This document shows positions 47,387-54,783 of a stretch of DNA of 64,000 nucleotides, piece after piece. Position numbers and translations under genes: made by a program. The notes beneath the pieces were generated by a model. That model was not told the origin of the DNA, searched no databases, and saw only the letters and a list, made by a program, of their open reading frames with translations. The stretch covers positions 5,005,371 to 5,069,370 of the forward strand of contig CM074764.1 in NCBI GenBank assembly GCA_037355855.1, written 5' to 3'. The stretch's first letter is position 1. Every line of letters starts with the position of its first letter. This DNA is from Pseudo-nitzschia pungens. Taxonomy: Eukaryota; Bacillariophyta; Bacillariophyceae; Bacillariales; Bacillariaceae.

Positions 47387-48469
47387 ATGACAGCAACTTT
47401 AGAAAGACGTGAAAGCGTTTCAGTATGGGAACGTTTCTCTGCTTGGATTACTAGTACAGAAAACCGTTTATACATCGGTTGGTTTGGTTGTTTAATGTTC
47501 CCTACATTATTAACAGCTACATCTTGTTACATCATTGCGTTCATCGCAGCACCTCCAGTTGATATCGATGGTATCCGTGAGCCTGTAGCAGGTTCTTTAT
47601 TATACGGTAACAACATCATCACTGGTTCAGTTATCCCAAGTTCAAACGCTATCGGTATGCACTTCTACCCAATCTGGGAAGCAGCTTCAATCGATGAGTG
47701 GTTATACAACGGTGGTCCTTACCAATTAGTAGTTATGCACTTCTTATTAGGTGTAGCTTCTTACATGGGTCGTGAATGGGAATTATCTTACCGTTTAGGT
47801 ATGCGTCCTTGGATTTTCGTAGCATTCTCAGCTCCAGTAGCTGCAGCTTCTGCTGTATTCTTAGTATACCCAATCGGACAAGGTTCATTCTCTGATGGTA
47901 TGCCTTTAGGTATCTCTGGTACTTTCAACTTCATGCTTGTATTCCAAGCTGAGCACAACATTTTAATGCACCCATTCCACATGGCTGGTGTTGCTGGTGT
48001 ATTTGGTGGTTCTTTATTCTCAGCTATGCACGGTTCATTAGTAACTTCTTCTTTAATTCGTGAAACAACTGAAAACGAATCTACTAACAACGGTTACAAA
48101 TTCGGTCAAGAAGAAGAAACTTACAACATCGTTGCAGCACACGGTTACTTTGGTCGTTTAATCTTCCAATACGCTTCATTCAACAACTCTCGTGCTTTAC
48201 ACTTCTTCTTAGCTTTATGGCCAGTTTTAGGTATCTGGTTAACTGCTATGGGTATCAGCACAATGGCGTTCAACTTAAACGGTTTCAACTTCAACCAATC
48301 AGTTGTTGATTCTCAAGGTCGTGTAATTAACACATGGGCTGACATCATCAACCGTGCTGATTTAGGTATGGAAGTAATGCACGAACGTAACGCTCACAAC
48401 TTCCCATTAGATTTAGCTTCAGGTGAAGTATTACCAGTAGCTTTAACAGCTCCAGCTGTTAACGGTTAA
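47387..48469 (+). CDS. psbA: Photosystem II D1 protein
   Basis: Reaction centre subunit binding P680, pheophytin, QB and the manganese cluster. 360 residues, intact. Motifs: five spans, [14 protein letters not shown], the Tyr161 region [30 protein letters not shown], and the C-terminus HNFPLDLA followed by a cleavable tail [16 protein letters not shown] removed by CtpA after Ala344. Codon choice is strongly skewed to C-ending AAC/TTC/TAC/CAC codons, as expected of a very highly expressed plastid gene. The hairpin at 48488-48522 follows. Confidence 0.98.
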
Positions 48470-48751: not shown

Positions 48752-49075
48752 CATTACTCAACAATTCAAGGTGCTTCGACATTAAGTGAAAGTGAAGTTC
48801 AATCGATGTTAGACGAAGCAGAAAAAAATGCAGCTGCAGATAAAATTAAACGTGAAAATATTGATCTAAAAAATCAAGCTGATTTATTATGTTCTGAAGT
48901 GGAAAAAGAACTTCCAAATGTCCCTTCTGAAGATGAGCAACAGGCAATTACAAAATTAATTGGAGAAATTAAAGAAAGTATTCAAAGCGATAATATTGAG
49001 ACTTTAAAAGTCTTAATTGAAGATTTAAAAGAAAAATTAAATAACATGAAGTCTCAAGATACAGTAAATCCTTAA
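48752..49075 (+). pseudogene. dnaK: dnaK 3' fragment (Hsp70 C-terminal part)
   Basis: The frame is open from 48752 (an in-frame stop lies just before) to TAA at 49075. From about 48761 the product reads TIQGASTLSESEVQSMLDEAEKN, then ENIDLKNQADLLCSEVEKEL to the end: the helical lid and C-terminus of plastid DnaK, about 107 of the usual 600 or more residues. The nucleotide-binding domain and most of the substrate-binding domain are missing upstream, where unrelated sequence is found. The ATG at 48806 is internal. Likely a copy cut by a repeat boundary or an insertion event; the complete gene would be elsewhere in the genome. Confidence 0.85.
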
Positions 49076-49099
49076 TATCCCTTGGAATGAAATGTTATA

Positions 49100-49126
49100 G
49101 GATCAGTTTTGTTTTTAACTAGATCC
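49100..49126 (+). terminator. Hairpin after the dnaK fragment
   Basis: GGATCAGTT and AACTAGATCC pair with one bulged base, 25 bases after the stop. It fits the native dnaK terminator carried along with the fragment. Confidence 0.6.
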
Positions 49127-49164
49127 AATTTATAATTTCTTATACAAAGTATTGTCCACCAACG

Positions 49165-49212
49165 TATAAAATTAATTTTTATAAGAATAGAACTATAAAA
49201 ATTAATTTTATA
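49165..49212. repeat. 19-bp perfect inverted repeat before the Rep-like module
   Basis: Arms 49165-49183 and 49194-49212 pair perfectly around a 10-base loop (AGAATAGAAC). It may be a terminator for the dnaK fragment or, since it lies upstream of a Rep-like gene, a relic replication origin. The loop has no canonical NANTATTAC nonamer. Confidence 0.75.
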
Positions 49213-49243
49213 CTTTTATACACTAGTTCTTAAAAATCCTTAA

Positions 49244-49456
49244 GATGAAGAAATTGATGATTGGCCTATGGCTAATGCCTATACCGAAATCACCAAATTA
49301 GGGAGAAATAGAAATATAAAAGATTTTAATATCAATTACGAAGAAATATACATTCCAAATCCAAATCAAAAAGAAACTCCTCAGAATACTTTTAGATTAG
49401 TCGTAGATCAACCAATAAATACCCCTTTTAAGCACCGAATTAGAGCGAATGATTAA
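49244..49456 (+). CDS. Unknown small ORF 1 of the Rep module
   Basis: Open from 49244, with the first ATG at 49268 (62 residues: MANAYTEITKLGRNRN ... FKHRIRAND). I recognise no family. The seven codons before the ATG (DEEIDDW) are in frame after a stop, so a longer protein broken by a frameshift is possible. Its end overlaps the next ORF start by 8 bases (ATGATTAA), a pattern of translational coupling or of one gene with a slipped base. Confidence 0.4.
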   Translation, partial: DEEIDDWPMANAYTEITKLGRNRNIKDFNINYEEIYIPNPNQKETPQNTFRLVVDQPINTPFKHRIRAND

Positions 49457-49646
49457 AAAAGTGAGTGTAGTTGACCCAGAATTAGCTAATCAATTAACAG
49501 AAGATGATTTGGATTTTATAGATTCTAATATAACTAATAAATATCCTGATGATACCGATGACACAAAAATTGAAGAGGAGTTGTTTGGGAATTTTGACGA
49601 ATTTGATCAGGAGGGAGATGATCTCTTGGATTTTGACATAAAATAA
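49449..49646 (+). CDS. Unknown small acidic ORF 2 of the Rep module
   Basis: 65 residues, very acidic (FDEFDQEGDDLLDFDIK at the end; about a third Asp/Glu). No family recognised. It lies between ORF 1 (8-base overlap) and the Rep-like gene (22-base gap), all on the same strand, so the three may form one transcript. It could be a fragment. Confidence 0.4.
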   Translation: MIKKVSVVDPELANQLTEDDLDFIDSNITNKYPDDTDDTKIEEELFGNFDEFDQEGDDLLDFDIK

Positions 49647-49668
49647 TAACAATAAATAATATATTAAT

Positions 49669-50563
49669 ATGGTTATATCAGCACAAAATAAAGGCTCATA
49701 TTTTAAAATTAAAATTATTTTGGAGCGAAACCTAATATCAATGGAAGAACGCTCCGAAAATGCCTTAGAAAACGAAATAGACATTATATTAGCTAAGATG
49801 AATGCATCTTCTCAGGTGTATAAATTTGAAAGTGAAGATAAGAGTCGGATTGTTTATTTATTTTCAACAGGGACTAGAAAACGGAAAGGACAGCTCGAGA
49901 AATTATTAGCTACGAGCGAAACCATAGGTAGCTTAGTTTATAAGTATCAAACAGAAGGATTATTGAAAAATGAATTTGCCGATCAAGTAAAACTTTATAC
50001 AAGCAAACTAAAAAATATAAAAAAACCCCAAGCGTTCGATGGGTACATGGGAAATGACCTTAAAATTCTAAGTAATTTCGAAAACTATTACCCGTGGCAG
50101 AAACAAGTCTGGAACATTATAAAAGTAATTCCGAGTTTAGACCTTCTGATTCCCGTGAAATTATACATTTAATTGATCGAGAAGGGTGTACGGGAAAATC
50201 GAAATTCGCTAAAAAAATAGTCTTCGATCACCCTTACGACGTTGGAGTTATAACATATGGGACAACATCACAGATAAATTCTTCCATTGTAAATTTAGGT
50301 CCGAAAAAATTATATATAATTGACTTAACACGAGCAAAATGTAAGACAGACAGTGAACGTGATTTAATTGCAGGGCTAGAATCGGGTAAAAATGGGAAAG
50401 GGACGGCCCCTTTTAATGGAACCACCTCATATTTTAATTATGAGTCATTCCGAACATTGATAAGTCATTATTATCTAAAGATAGATGGAAAGTCTTCGAA
50501 ATCGAAGATAAGGAATTAAGAAAAATAGAGCTAGAAGAAGATGAAAATATTTTAGTAAAGTAA
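49669..50563 (+). pseudogene. Rep-like superfamily 3 helicase, frame broken
   Basis: About 300 codons in at least four frame segments. Segment 1 (49669 to about 50120) has no recognised endonuclease motif but ends in the YPWQKQVW stretch that opens the helicase part of CRESS-type Rep proteins. Segment 2 (about 50120-50410) has DSREIIHLIDREG, Walker A GCTGKS and Walker B LYIID. A segment near 50424-50445 has PPHILIM, matching motif C. The last (about 50450 to TAA 50563) has SKDRWKVFEI, the usual sequel. No HUH motifs (HxQ, YxxK pair) are visible. Codon use differs from neighbours (more CGG, GGG, AGA, CTC). It is encoded 145 bases before 5S rRNA, tail to tail. Homology to Rep is a motif judgement; breaks may be sequencing errors or decay. 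Confidence 0.7.
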
Positions 50564-50707
50564 CCGGCCTGATTAAAAAGAAACCATTTAAATTACTGGC
50601 AGTTATCACTCTTAGTATAAAAATAATTAACAGGATTCAACAAAATAATATTGAAGTTGAATTATTAAATAATTTACCTTTTAGAAAAATTAATATTAGA
50701 ATAAAAC

Positions 50708-50829
50708 TTTGGCATTGAACTATTTTCCCAGGAGGTGTCCCTCCAAGTATTTTCGTCGATTTATAACGTTTCACTACTGAGTTCGAGATGGATCAGTGTG
50801 GTTCCGTTGAATACACTAAAAACACCAAA
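50708..50829 (-). rRNA. rrn5: 5S rRNA
   Basis: Complementary strand shows the 5S core: helix ends TTTGG/CCAAA, CACACTGATCCATCTCGAAC and AGTAGTGAAACG. It follows 23S by about 45 bases in the same direction, as in plastid rRNA operons. Ends are set from the terminal helix. Confidence 0.93.
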
Positions 50830-50875: not shown

Positions 50876-51003
50876 ATTCAAGTCCTCGGTCTGTTAGCAC
50901 ATCTCAGCTCATATATTACTATATTTATACTTAATGCCTATCAAACGGTTAGTCTTACCGTGACCTTACTCACTTACGTGATGAGAATACTTATCTTGAG
51001 GTG

Positions 51004-51037
<34 letters not shown>

Positions 51038-51161
51038 CTCCGTACATAGCTACCCAGCGTTTACCGTTGGCACGATAACTGGTACACCAGAGGTACGTCC
51101 TTCTCGGTCCTCTCGTACTAAAGAAGGCTCCTCTCAATATTCTAACGCCTACACCGGATAT

Positions 51162-51209
<48 letters not shown>

Positions 51210-51245
51210 CATGGGCGAACAGCCCAACCCTTGGGACGTACTACC

Positions 51246-51314
<69 letters not shown>

Positions 51315-51509
51315 CAGCCTGTTATCCCTAGAGTAACTTTTATCCGTTGAGTGACGGCCTTTCCACTCAGCACCGTCAGATCACTAAGACCGACTTTCGT
51401 CCCCTGCTCGACTTGTAGGTCTCACAGTCAAGCTTCCTTATGCCTTTACACTCTAGATACGATTTCTACACGTTCAGAGGAAACCTTTGTACGCCTCCGT
51501 TACCATTTG

Positions 51510-51543
<34 letters not shown>

Positions 51544-51795
51544 AACTGTCCTTTGACCAGATCATGATACAAAGTTAGAAATCTAACATTACCAGAGTGG
51601 TATCTCACTGATGGCTCCTAAATTCCCGCAAGAATAAACTCAACGCCTCCCACCTATACTGCGCAAGTAAAGTCCAATTCCAATTTCAAGTTACAGTAAA
51701 GCTTCATAGGGTCTTTCTGTCCAGGTGCAGGTAGTCCGCATCTTCACAGACAAGTCTATTTCACCGAGCCCCTCTCCGAGACAGTATCCAAATCA

Positions 51796-51878
<83 letters not shown>

Positions 51879-52647
51879 AGGGCTTCAGTTATCAGCTTCG
51901 CGGATGCTAACCAACTTCTTTAACCTTCTGGCACTGGGCAGGCGTCAGCCCCCATACATCGTCTTACGACTTAGCGGAGACCTGTGTTTTTGGTAAACAG
52001 TTGCTTGGATCTTGTTATTGCAACCTTATAAATAAGGCACTCCTTCTCCCGAAGTTACGGAGTCATTTTGCCGAGTTCCTTAGAGAGAGTTATCTCGCGC
52101 CCCTTAGTATACTCTACCTACCCACCTGTGTCGGTTATGGTACAGGCATTATTTATTTACGACAGTGCGAGCTTTTCTTGGAAGTCTGACATAGACTGCT
52201 TCAATGCCGTAGCATCTCGTCATCACGCCTCAACTCAAAACGTTTTCTCCGTTTCTCAACATCTCGAACGCTTAAACCGGTAACCAACATCCGGCCAGCT
52301 TAGCCTCCTTCGTCCCTCGTTATCAATAAATAATGGTACGGGAATATTAACCCGTTGTCCATCGACTACGCTTTTCAGCCTCGCCTTAGGTCCTGACTTA
52401 CCCTCCGCGGACGAGCCTTCCAGAGGAAACCTTGGGTTTTCGGGGTATAGGATTCTCACCTATATTTTCGTTACTCAAGCCGACATTCTCACTTCTGCTT
52501 CGTCCATATCCACTTACGTTAATACTTCAATCTACAACAGAACGCTCCCCTACCGATATATCTTCTATATATCGCACAGTTTCGGCAAATTACTTAGTCC
52601 CGTACATTTTCGGCGCAGGTTTACTCGATCAGTGAGCTATTACGCAC

Positions 52648-52683
<36 letters not shown>

Positions 52684-53247
52684 ATTGTTTCTGCACTCCC
52701 ACCTCCTTTATCACTTAGTAATTATTTGGGGGCCTTAACTGGTGCTCTGGGCTGTTTCCCTCTTGACAATGGAGCTTATCCCCCACAGTCTCACTGATAA
52801 ACTGTTCACTTAGTATTCTTAGTTTGCAACGATTTGGTACCGAATTACCAGCCCGCATACGTAACAGTGCTTTACCCCTAAGTTATAATATTTATCGCTG
52901 CGCCAAAACGCATTTCGGGGAGAACCAGCTAGCTCCGAATTCGATTGGCATTTCACCCCTAACCACAATTCATCCGCTGATTTTTCAACATCAGTCGGTT
53001 CGGTCCTCCACTTAGTATTACCTAAGCTTCAACCTGACCATGGTTAGATCATCCGGGTTCGGGTCTATAACCAGTGACATATGCCCTATTCAGGCTCGCT
53101 TTCACTATGGCTCCAGCATTCTCTGCCTTAACCTGCCACTACCTATAAGTCGCCGGCTCATTCTTCAACAGGCACGAAGTCAGACGATTTAGTCGTCCTC
53201 CTACTGATTGTAAGTTTATGGTTTCATGTTCTTTTCACTCCCCTCCC

Positions 53248-53278
<31 letters not shown>

Positions 53279-53500
53279 ATTTCACTATCGGTCATTCAGG
53301 AATATTTAGCCTTACGAGGTGGTCCTCGCAGATTCACACGGAATTTCACGTGCTCCATGCTACTTGGGATAAGATTTGATTATTTCAATTTTCAACTACA
53401 AGACTATCACTCTCTTTGGTTAAGCATTCCAACTTATTCGTCTAATTGTCCTAATCGATTTACAATCGTCCCACTACCCTTAGTTAAGAACTAAGTTTAG
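50876..53500 (-). rRNA. rrn23: 23S rRNA, 5' end in gap
   Basis: About 2.6 kb of large-subunit rRNA on the minus strand, recognised from the peptidyl transferase region, the sarcin-ricin loop (AGTACGAGAGGACC complement near 51106-51120) and domain II/III landmarks. The first 170-250 or so bases fall in the N gap. Several open frames inside it are chance. A highly expressed rRNA operon of the plastid inverted repeat is implied; 16S, trnI and trnA are not in this window. Confidence 0.96.
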
Positions 53501-54000
53501 NNNNNNNNNNNNNNNNNNNNNNNNNNNNNNNNNNNNNNNNNNNNNNNNNNNNNNNNNNNNNNNNNNNNNNNNNNNNNNNNNNNNNNNNNNNNNNNNNNNN
53601 NNNNNNNNNNNNNNNNNNNNNNNNNNNNNNNNNNNNNNNNNNNNNNNNNNNNNNNNNNNNNNNNNNNNNNNNNNNNNNNNNNNNNNNNNNNNNNNNNNNN
53701 NNNNNNNNNNNNNNNNNNNNNNNNNNNNNNNNNNNNNNNNNNNNNNNNNNNNNNNNNNNNNNNNNNNNNNNNNNNNNNNNNNNNNNNNNNNNNNNNNNNN
53801 NNNNNNNNNNNNNNNNNNNNNNNNNNNNNNNNNNNNNNNNNNNNNNNNNNNNNNNNNNNNNNNNNNNNNNNNNNNNNNNNNNNNNNNNNNNNNNNNNNNN
53901 NNNNNNNNNNNNNNNNNNNNNNNNNNNNNNNNNNNNNNNNNNNNNNNNNNNNNNNNNNNNNNNNNNNNNNNNNNNNNNNNNNNNNNNNNNNNNNNNNNNN
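53501..54000. other. Scaffold gap, 500 N
   Basis: Exactly 500 undetermined bases between 23S rRNA and rpl19. The two pieces need not be neighbours: 23S lacks its 5' end on one side and rpl19 its 3' end on the other. Confidence 0.98.
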
Positions 54001-54441: not shown

Positions 54442-54783
54442 TGGAGCTGATGGGAATTGAACCCACGTCCATCTAAACTTTTTAATCTACTTTTATCACA
54501 AGCATAGTTCAAAAGAACGAGATAGAGTTTTATATTATTCTAAACTATTGGACTTAAAACGTCTAGTAATAGTGAAAAAAGATTAAAGAAAGATAATTAT
54601 TACATAGCAAATCGTAATGAATTTGCTTGATTAACTTTACAAATAGAATTTAGAAAAGTTGAAACGGATAAAATTAAATTTTTAGCAGTTATTTTAAAGT
54701 TGTATATTTTTTTTTCGAAGAATATAAACTTCGGCTTGATTCATATTTTAATAAAATTTAAATGTCGAAACCAAAGCAGCCCC
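54442..54783 (-). ncRNA. ssrA: tmRNA (ssrA)
   Basis: One-piece tmRNA of 342 bases that rescues stalled ribosomes and tags broken proteins. The 5' end GGGGCTG with TTTGGTTTCGACAT and the 3' end GGGTTCAATTCCCATCAGCTCCA form the tRNA-like half with a TTCAATT T loop. The tag frame runs from GCT at 54686 to TAA at 54600: 28 residues starting AKNLILSV and ending SLRFAM. It lies between the CAU tRNA (5 bases away) and trnR. Confidence 0.94.

Follow-up and report, generated by a model that had tools for sequence, protein, structure and literature searches.

Our subject is a broken gene beside the plastid ribosomal RNA (rRNA) operon of the diatom Pseudo-nitzschia pungens. It lies in a 64-kb stretch of DNA (the window; C7:5005371-5069370 in an assembly of 66.9 Mb and 28 contigs) and its pieces resemble a replication initiator (Rep) protein of the kind found in circular Rep-encoding single-stranded (CRESS) DNA viruses. 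On one side are psbA, the 3' end of dnaK, a hairpin and a short acidic open reading frame (ORF), and on the other are the 5S and 23S rRNA genes (Table 1). An earlier note, made from the letters of this sequence, had placed a gene with superfamily 3 (SF3) helicase motifs and a YPWQKQVW stretch next to the 5S gene. That position is right, and when the coordinates were checked all the motifs were found where they had been claimed, spread over three frames. As far as sequence can tell, the alignments assign the pieces to a protein family without a name, in which an SF3 helicase of the CRESS Rep kind is joined to an N-terminal domain without HUH nuclease motifs.

Table 1. Features of the Rep-like segment and its surroundings (window positions; aa, amino acids; nt, nucleotides).
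Feature	Position	Strand	Remark
Rep-like gene remnant, pieces in three frames	49669..50563	+	tblastn of P0002, P0003 and P0119; whole-genome searches
Piece 1: degenerate HUH/origin-binding-like domain and linker with WQ box	49669..50121	+	
WQ box YPWQKQVW	50089-50112	+	
Piece 2: SF3 helicase core	50118..50396	+	86% to P0002 residues 153-245
Walker A GCTGKS	50184..50201	+	G, K and S in 52/52 HUH Reps and 91/91 family members
Walker B LYIID	50310..50324	+	D in 52/52 HUH Reps and 91/91 family members
Piece 3: motif C, PPHILIM	50395..50454	+	motif itself at 50422-50442
Piece 4: arginine box SKDRWKVFEI (50474-50503) and C-terminal tail	50456..50563	+	
Acidic ORF, two frames in window copy	49268..49646	+	one 125-aa ORF in L020, L022 and L023
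AT-rich hairpin, 23-nt arms (96% complementary), 10-nt loop	49161..49216		between dnaK and acidic ORF
psbA, intact, single-copy flank	47387..48469	+	
dnaK 3' end, truncated copy on psbA side	48806..49075	+	HSP70 match 1.8e-6
5S rRNA	50707..50829	-	Rfam RF00001
23S rRNA, stops at N gap 53501-54000	50886..53500	-	Rfam RF02541, three stretches
Plastid inverted repeat, query-covered part	48760..50700	n/a	dnaK-type and psbA-type copies diverge at 48760

The likeness to Rep proteins is most apparent when relatives are compared with the segment by tblastn. Piece 1 is 73% identical to residues 1-151 of P0002, an intact relative, and 43% identical to P0003, while piece 4 matches P0002 residues 273-307 at 83% and is in frame with piece 3 in six other accurate copies of the region. 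The best HUH-bearing relatives of piece 2 are P0217 (35%, E=1.4e-20) and P0127 (42%, 3.0e-20). When P0003 was searched against the whole assembly it found window pieces 1 and 2 (E=2.8e-30 and 1.4e-25, respectively); for the last piece, the matches listed are in the six other copies only (5.8e-8). P0119, a Rep with intact HUH motifs, found the helicase piece of the window at 9.0e-14 and the N-terminal piece weakly (0.086). Given these E-values from two independent relatives, the Rep likeness of the segment is not a matter of chance. The earlier claim that a diatom plastid captured a CRESS-kind gene for a Rep-like SF3 helicase is supported. The profile check that had been proposed for single segments was of no use: Pfam and PHROGs searches with single Rep pieces of the window and a PDB sequence search with piece 2 gave nothing useful, and the PF00910 profile had no match in the genome. 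Single pieces are too divergent for such searches. The Rep of Ulva CRESS virus 1 matched the segment weakly, with E of 0.007-0.009 in the six other accurate copies and no match below 0.01 in the window copy.

HUH motif II is absent from piece 1, and, as had been noted from the letters, none of the HUH motifs can be recognised in the N-terminal third. This had been taken as a possible mark of an unusual form, and the motifs are indeed missing, but the trait is not peculiar to the segment since it extends to the whole family. With a limit of E up to 1, a search with P0002 and P0003 returned 129 clusters of proteins (the best 120 of 129 are listed). Members are mostly about 310 aa long, have no precomputed Pfam domain and, where their sources name them at all, are called only 'hypothetical protein'. 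We aligned 93 of the 120 listed proteins after 27, mostly fragments or near-copies, had been dropped by eye, and setting aside P0119 and P0120 leaves 91 family members. These two carry the motifs FTWN, [FL]HYQG and YCTK, match Pfam Viral_Rep at 3.7e-5 and 9.1e-4 (below the curated cut-off) and led to 223 clusters of HUH-bearing relatives, the best 120 of which are listed and gave 52 alignment rows. P0119 also matched PDB Rep structures, presumably those of circovirus Reps, though weakly (best E 0.014).

In the joint alignment the motif II histidine is present in 52/52 HUH relatives and in 1/91 family members, and an H or Q at the second position of this motif in 52/52 and 0/91. The motif III tyrosine is likewise universal in the HUH relatives and found in none of the 91, and the lysine of motif III, again in all 52, is kept in 33. 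Two arginines beyond motif II are retained on both sides, R65 in 52/52 and 90/91 and R67 in 52/52 and 91/91. Apart from Y247 (70/91, otherwise mostly F) and I215, a variable position in Walker B, each of the helicase residues examined is kept in at least 87/91 family members. The alignments thus show in what order the domains stand, that the nuclease residues are lost and that those of the ATPase are conserved.

What the N-terminal domain derives from can be judged by comparing profiles. With the family and the HUH group aligned separately, their N-terminal profiles match at E=7.4e-6 (probability 84%, score 36.2), while 30 column-shuffled controls scored at most 14.2 and a reversed one 16.6. 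The N-terminal third is neither missing nor an obvious fusion, as the suggestion of a helicase-only or fused form would have it, and looks like a degenerate HUH-type domain. The predicted N-terminal fold of P0003 resembles, among others, the origin-binding domains of polyomavirus T-antigens. This fold is of a common class in which several ferredoxin-like folds score alike, which together with the absence of the HUH motifs could suit a CRESS helicase to which an unrelated DNA-binding domain of ferredoxin-like fold was fused. We consider such an origin unlikely, given the profile match to HUH N-termini and the NK, F.T and R.R columns shared with them. In a tree of the helicase alone (65 of the 91 family and 26 of the 52 HUH rows) one branch with a support of 99 splits the family from the HUH group, and in a second tree of 87 rows, 18 of them HUH, the support is 100. 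The simplest reading of these trees, which are without an outgroup, is that the HUH motifs were lost once. Piece 2 of the window groups in the second tree with P0002 (98), and the next supported set that includes it comprises three rows (99); P0082 is the row nearest to it after P0002.

The gene is no longer readable in the plastid. Two frame changes are common to all seven accurate copies. On the scale of P0002, one lies between residues 151 and 153 and the other between 245 and 248, and a count from the limits of the ungapped tblastn matches to this relative shows that the DNA there is a net 7 and 23 bases shorter than P0002 requires. Walker B and motif C lie on either side of the second loss. 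Counted from the gene start, five of the six other accurate copies are identical for 1,030 bases and L022 has one substitution; the window copy departs from these six in length by a single base at two places, one in the acidic ORF and the other in Rep, the latter being a third break that the others do not have. One could suppose that sequencing error alone broke the frames and that an intact, working gene exists in the plastid. The assembly does hold indel errors, namely the single-base differences of the window copy and a copy-specific one-base difference that breaks dnaK in L023, and one copy of the Rep region is noisy (94%). However, the shared breaks are multi-base net losses and not single-base differences, and in L020 and L022 the dnaK frame beside the same broken Rep is intact, with 598 aa. 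The first break also occurs in P0001 (167 aa, 99%), a protein from JGI and ENA data that terminates in the same wrong frame with one residue different, which suggests that this break is not an assembly error. We therefore find an intact gene hidden by error hardly credible. A programmed frameshift in a working gene was also considered and rejected, because the shared breaks are multi-base net losses and the frame between them is rich in stops. With its frame broken and the stretch from Walker B to motif C shortened, the plastid copy should be incapable of initiation.

One significant concern could be associated with the assembly itself. The host contig of the window is nuclear-sized (C7, 5.2 Mb), plastid DNA has been built into C5 and C7 repeatedly, and this comes with 500-N gaps and noisy repeated blocks. 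The segment could then be a nuclear insert of plastid DNA or an assembly chimaera instead of true plastid sequence. Against this, the window has the gene content of a plastid, with what we take to be rbcL, psbA, psaA, psaB, secA, clpC and ycf46, and its psbA, psaA and psaB frames are intact. The PDB chains that best match its Rubisco large subunit are 5n9z, 5mz2 and 5oya, presumably diatom enzymes. The Rep region is present in eight copies, the seven accurate ones and the noisy one, and in all eight the 5S and 23S genes lie on the other side of it. The upstream flank of the accurate copies is psbA in three and full-length dnaK in four (L020-L023, whose dnaK ends in the same 315 bases as the remnant in the window). 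The two flank types separate at window position 48760, which fits the border of the plastid inverted repeat, so that near-identical copies carry both repeat flanks. The noisy copy, L024, spans dnaK, Rep and 5S and continues into 23S, and this supports a real linkage of the segment to plastid DNA. P0001 is moreover present in other data, and among the matches listed for P0003 and P0119 against the whole assembly there is none outside these plastid blocks. Taken together we regard a chimaera or nuclear insert as very unlikely.

Some observations concern the assembly and not the Rep gene. A block of ccsA-trnN-clpC-trnL-rbcR-secA-ycf46-ccs1 occurs three times in window 7200-47000, beside 500-N gaps, with broken frames in two of the blocks and one inverted; these are probably unpolished read-derived copies scaffolded together. 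The transfer-messenger RNA gene at window 54442-54783 (minus strand) has an unusually long tag predicted by ARAGORN, 28 residues; we guess that a minor sequence error disturbs the frame of the tag. A second psbA lies at L037:3311-4675 (minus strand), around C7:1264322-1265383. It is 91% identical to plastid D1 over residues 5-358, forms an uninterrupted 454-aa frame in surroundings with a G+C content of 43-45%, and has an N-terminal extension that we take to resemble the presequences that target diatom proteins to the plastid. A nuclear D1 gene of natural origin would, if true, be remarkable; a literature search for nuclear D1 gave, among the matches listed, only a study of engineered rice and a review.

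The acidic ORF between dnaK and Rep may be a piece of another gene that came with the inserted element. It is split in the window by the single-base difference mentioned above, and in L023 it lies at 2554-2931 on the minus strand. It had no trusted match in Pfam, PHROG or NCBIfam, a PHROG match of its second piece (E 0.08) was taken as chance, and one pattern scan of IMG/VR found no relatives. The ends of the insert show only short, imperfect repeats and no recognised target-site duplication, and a search of the assembly with the serine recombinase profile Resolvase PF00239 gave no match.

The size of the contigs that carry family members provides a clue to the kind of element. For 117 of 118 listed proteins (P0119 and P0120 excluded, P0101 without a value) the longest contig of the cluster was 3,000-4,300 bases in 69/117 (median 3,550), shorter in 38 and longer in 10, and for the HUH-bearing relatives it was 2,900-4,300 bases in 91/120 of those listed (median 3,213), with 4 longer. 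This pattern suggests small replicons of defined size. Two divergent members, P0117 and P0103, are on contigs of 91 kb and 31 kb and may be further integrated copies; P0117 is without the MYG stretch between Walker B and motif C. P0013 (76 contigs) was deposited in a metagenome-assembled genome named Dolichospermum sp., which could mean a cyanobacterial host or a binning error; P0002, P0003 and P0011 are encoded on 12, 13 and 17 contigs. Searches for better known relatives gave little. RNA_helicase PF00910 matched P0003 at 0.065, too weak to count alone, MMR_HSR1, CARD and AMP_N profile rows were taken as chance, and PDB sequence searches with P0002, P0003 and a profile of the family alignment gave nothing useful. 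Rep searches of GTDB genome contigs, PLSDB and INPHARED had no matches except the phage protein Ndd in INPHARED (E 3-4, chance). The literature matches listed hold no report of a HUH-less family beside CRESS Reps, nor of a CRESS-type Rep in a diatom plastid.

With a probability of about three in four, we read the segment as what decay has left of a replication-initiator gene, brought by a small extrachromosomal element that became integrated in the diatom plastid inverted repeat between dnaK and the rRNA operon. A possible but doubtful alternative is that a viral CRESS Rep was captured directly, without passing through a plasmid, in which case the family would consist of encapsidated viruses whose Rep has lost nicking. 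Among the matches listed, the only named HUH-bearing relatives are indeed Ulva CRESS virus 1 and Cressdnaviricota sp., a 3.5 kb replicon has room for a capsid gene, and a Rep fragment is described from the nuclear genome of the diatom Chaetoceros tenuissimus in the part of PMC8613185 on which we draw. Additionally, on an IMG/VR contig (L043:500-3067) a HUH-bearing relative is followed by a basic 339-aa ORF, which could be a capsid protein; the rest of this contig may be other DNA. On the other side, four pattern scans of IMG/VR with Rep queries found no family member, a weak point that says little because the virus-like HUH relatives gave only one locus there. None of the nulls in IMG/VR, GTDB, PLSDB and INPHARED was used as evidence for a plasmid. 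The plastid location would also fit a plastid-resident plasmid better than a nuclear virus.

If the segment does come from a small extrachromosomal element, the replicons of its living relatives would measure about 3.2-3.9 kb. The N-terminal domain would bind the replicon origin without nicking it, perhaps via a conserved RKR stretch, and the helicase would assemble there as a ring and melt the DNA. Host polymerases could then copy the DNA without a Rep-made nick, in the manner of T-antigen and E1 and not by rolling circle. A small element of this kind, resident in the plastid, probably recombined into the repeat, as serine-recombinase plasmids have done in other diatoms according to the portions of PMC2873285 and PMC8070900 available to us. 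The plastid copy would now be inert, and copy-correction would keep both repeat arms alike.

What is new here is the HUH-less protein family, which is without Pfam names. We read its protein as a nickase-less initiator derived from CRESS Reps separately from T-antigen and E1, with a dead copy in a diatom plastid. More tentatively, and at somewhat less than even chances, the family may represent widespread, undescribed and tiny plastid-associated algal replicons (about 3.2-3.9 kb) that made a parallel invention of T-antigen/E1 initiation, with the relic as their first physical link to a host compartment. The step from nicking rolling-circle to nick-free T-antigen/E1 replication is thought to lie on the path from single-stranded DNA viruses to polyoma- and papillomaviruses, and the forces that drove it are called obscure, in the sections of PMC6668415 that treat it. 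A second lineage with the same loss and with HUH-bearing relatives still alive would open this step to comparative study. Serine-recombinase plasmids, which insert into diatom plastids, would be joined by an element of the Rep type, and an unnamed protein family would gain a host clue.

Comparing the segment and its family with known systems places them most closely beside the Reps of CRESS DNA viruses. The helicase half aligns throughout with like invariant residues, SF3 motifs A, B and C and the arginine box follow in the order known from CRESS and plasmid Reps, and both have the YxGxD and WQ boxes of the linker as well as the R.R pair. In contrast to these Reps, none of the 91 aligned members has a complete motif II or the tyrosine of motif III, so that by its residues the family would stand outside a strict definition of CRESS Reps, which requires HUH motifs, yet adjoin that group. 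Among plasmids, pCf1, pCf2 and the Haslea plasmids (3,534-4,513 bp) are likewise small elements that leave decayed genes in diatom plastid genomes. They differ in carrying a serine recombinase, and no Rep helicase is described for them in the excerpts of PMC2873285 and PMC8070900 that we cite. The plasmids of the red algae Pyropia pulchra and P. tenera share with our element a virus-like Rep on an algal plasmid, compared here by description only; the passages of PMC4814812 and PMC6668415 that concern them also mention plasmid-derived DNA in organelle genomes, and the latter groups their Reps with the HUH Reps of CRESS viruses.

The T-antigen and E1 proteins offer a parallel in design. Polyoma- and papillomaviruses are described in the relevant part of PMC6668415 as having an SF3 helicase with an inactivated HUH domain, most likely from parvoviruses. 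The family shares the domain order, in which an SF3 helicase comes after a HUH-type domain that has no nuclease motifs, and the predicted N-terminal fold of P0003 is close to T-antigen origin-binding domains. Membership in Polyomaviridae or Papillomaviridae is not indicated: no T-antigen or E1 chain was among the PDB matches at E up to 10 for P0002, P0003 and the family-alignment profile, while piece 2 has matches at about 1e-20 to CRESS-type Reps that carry HUH motifs. T-antigen is presumably also far larger than the family members of about 310 aa. Since the family helicase matches CRESS-type Reps by sequence, the loss of the nuclease looks to have occurred separately from that of T-antigen and E1.
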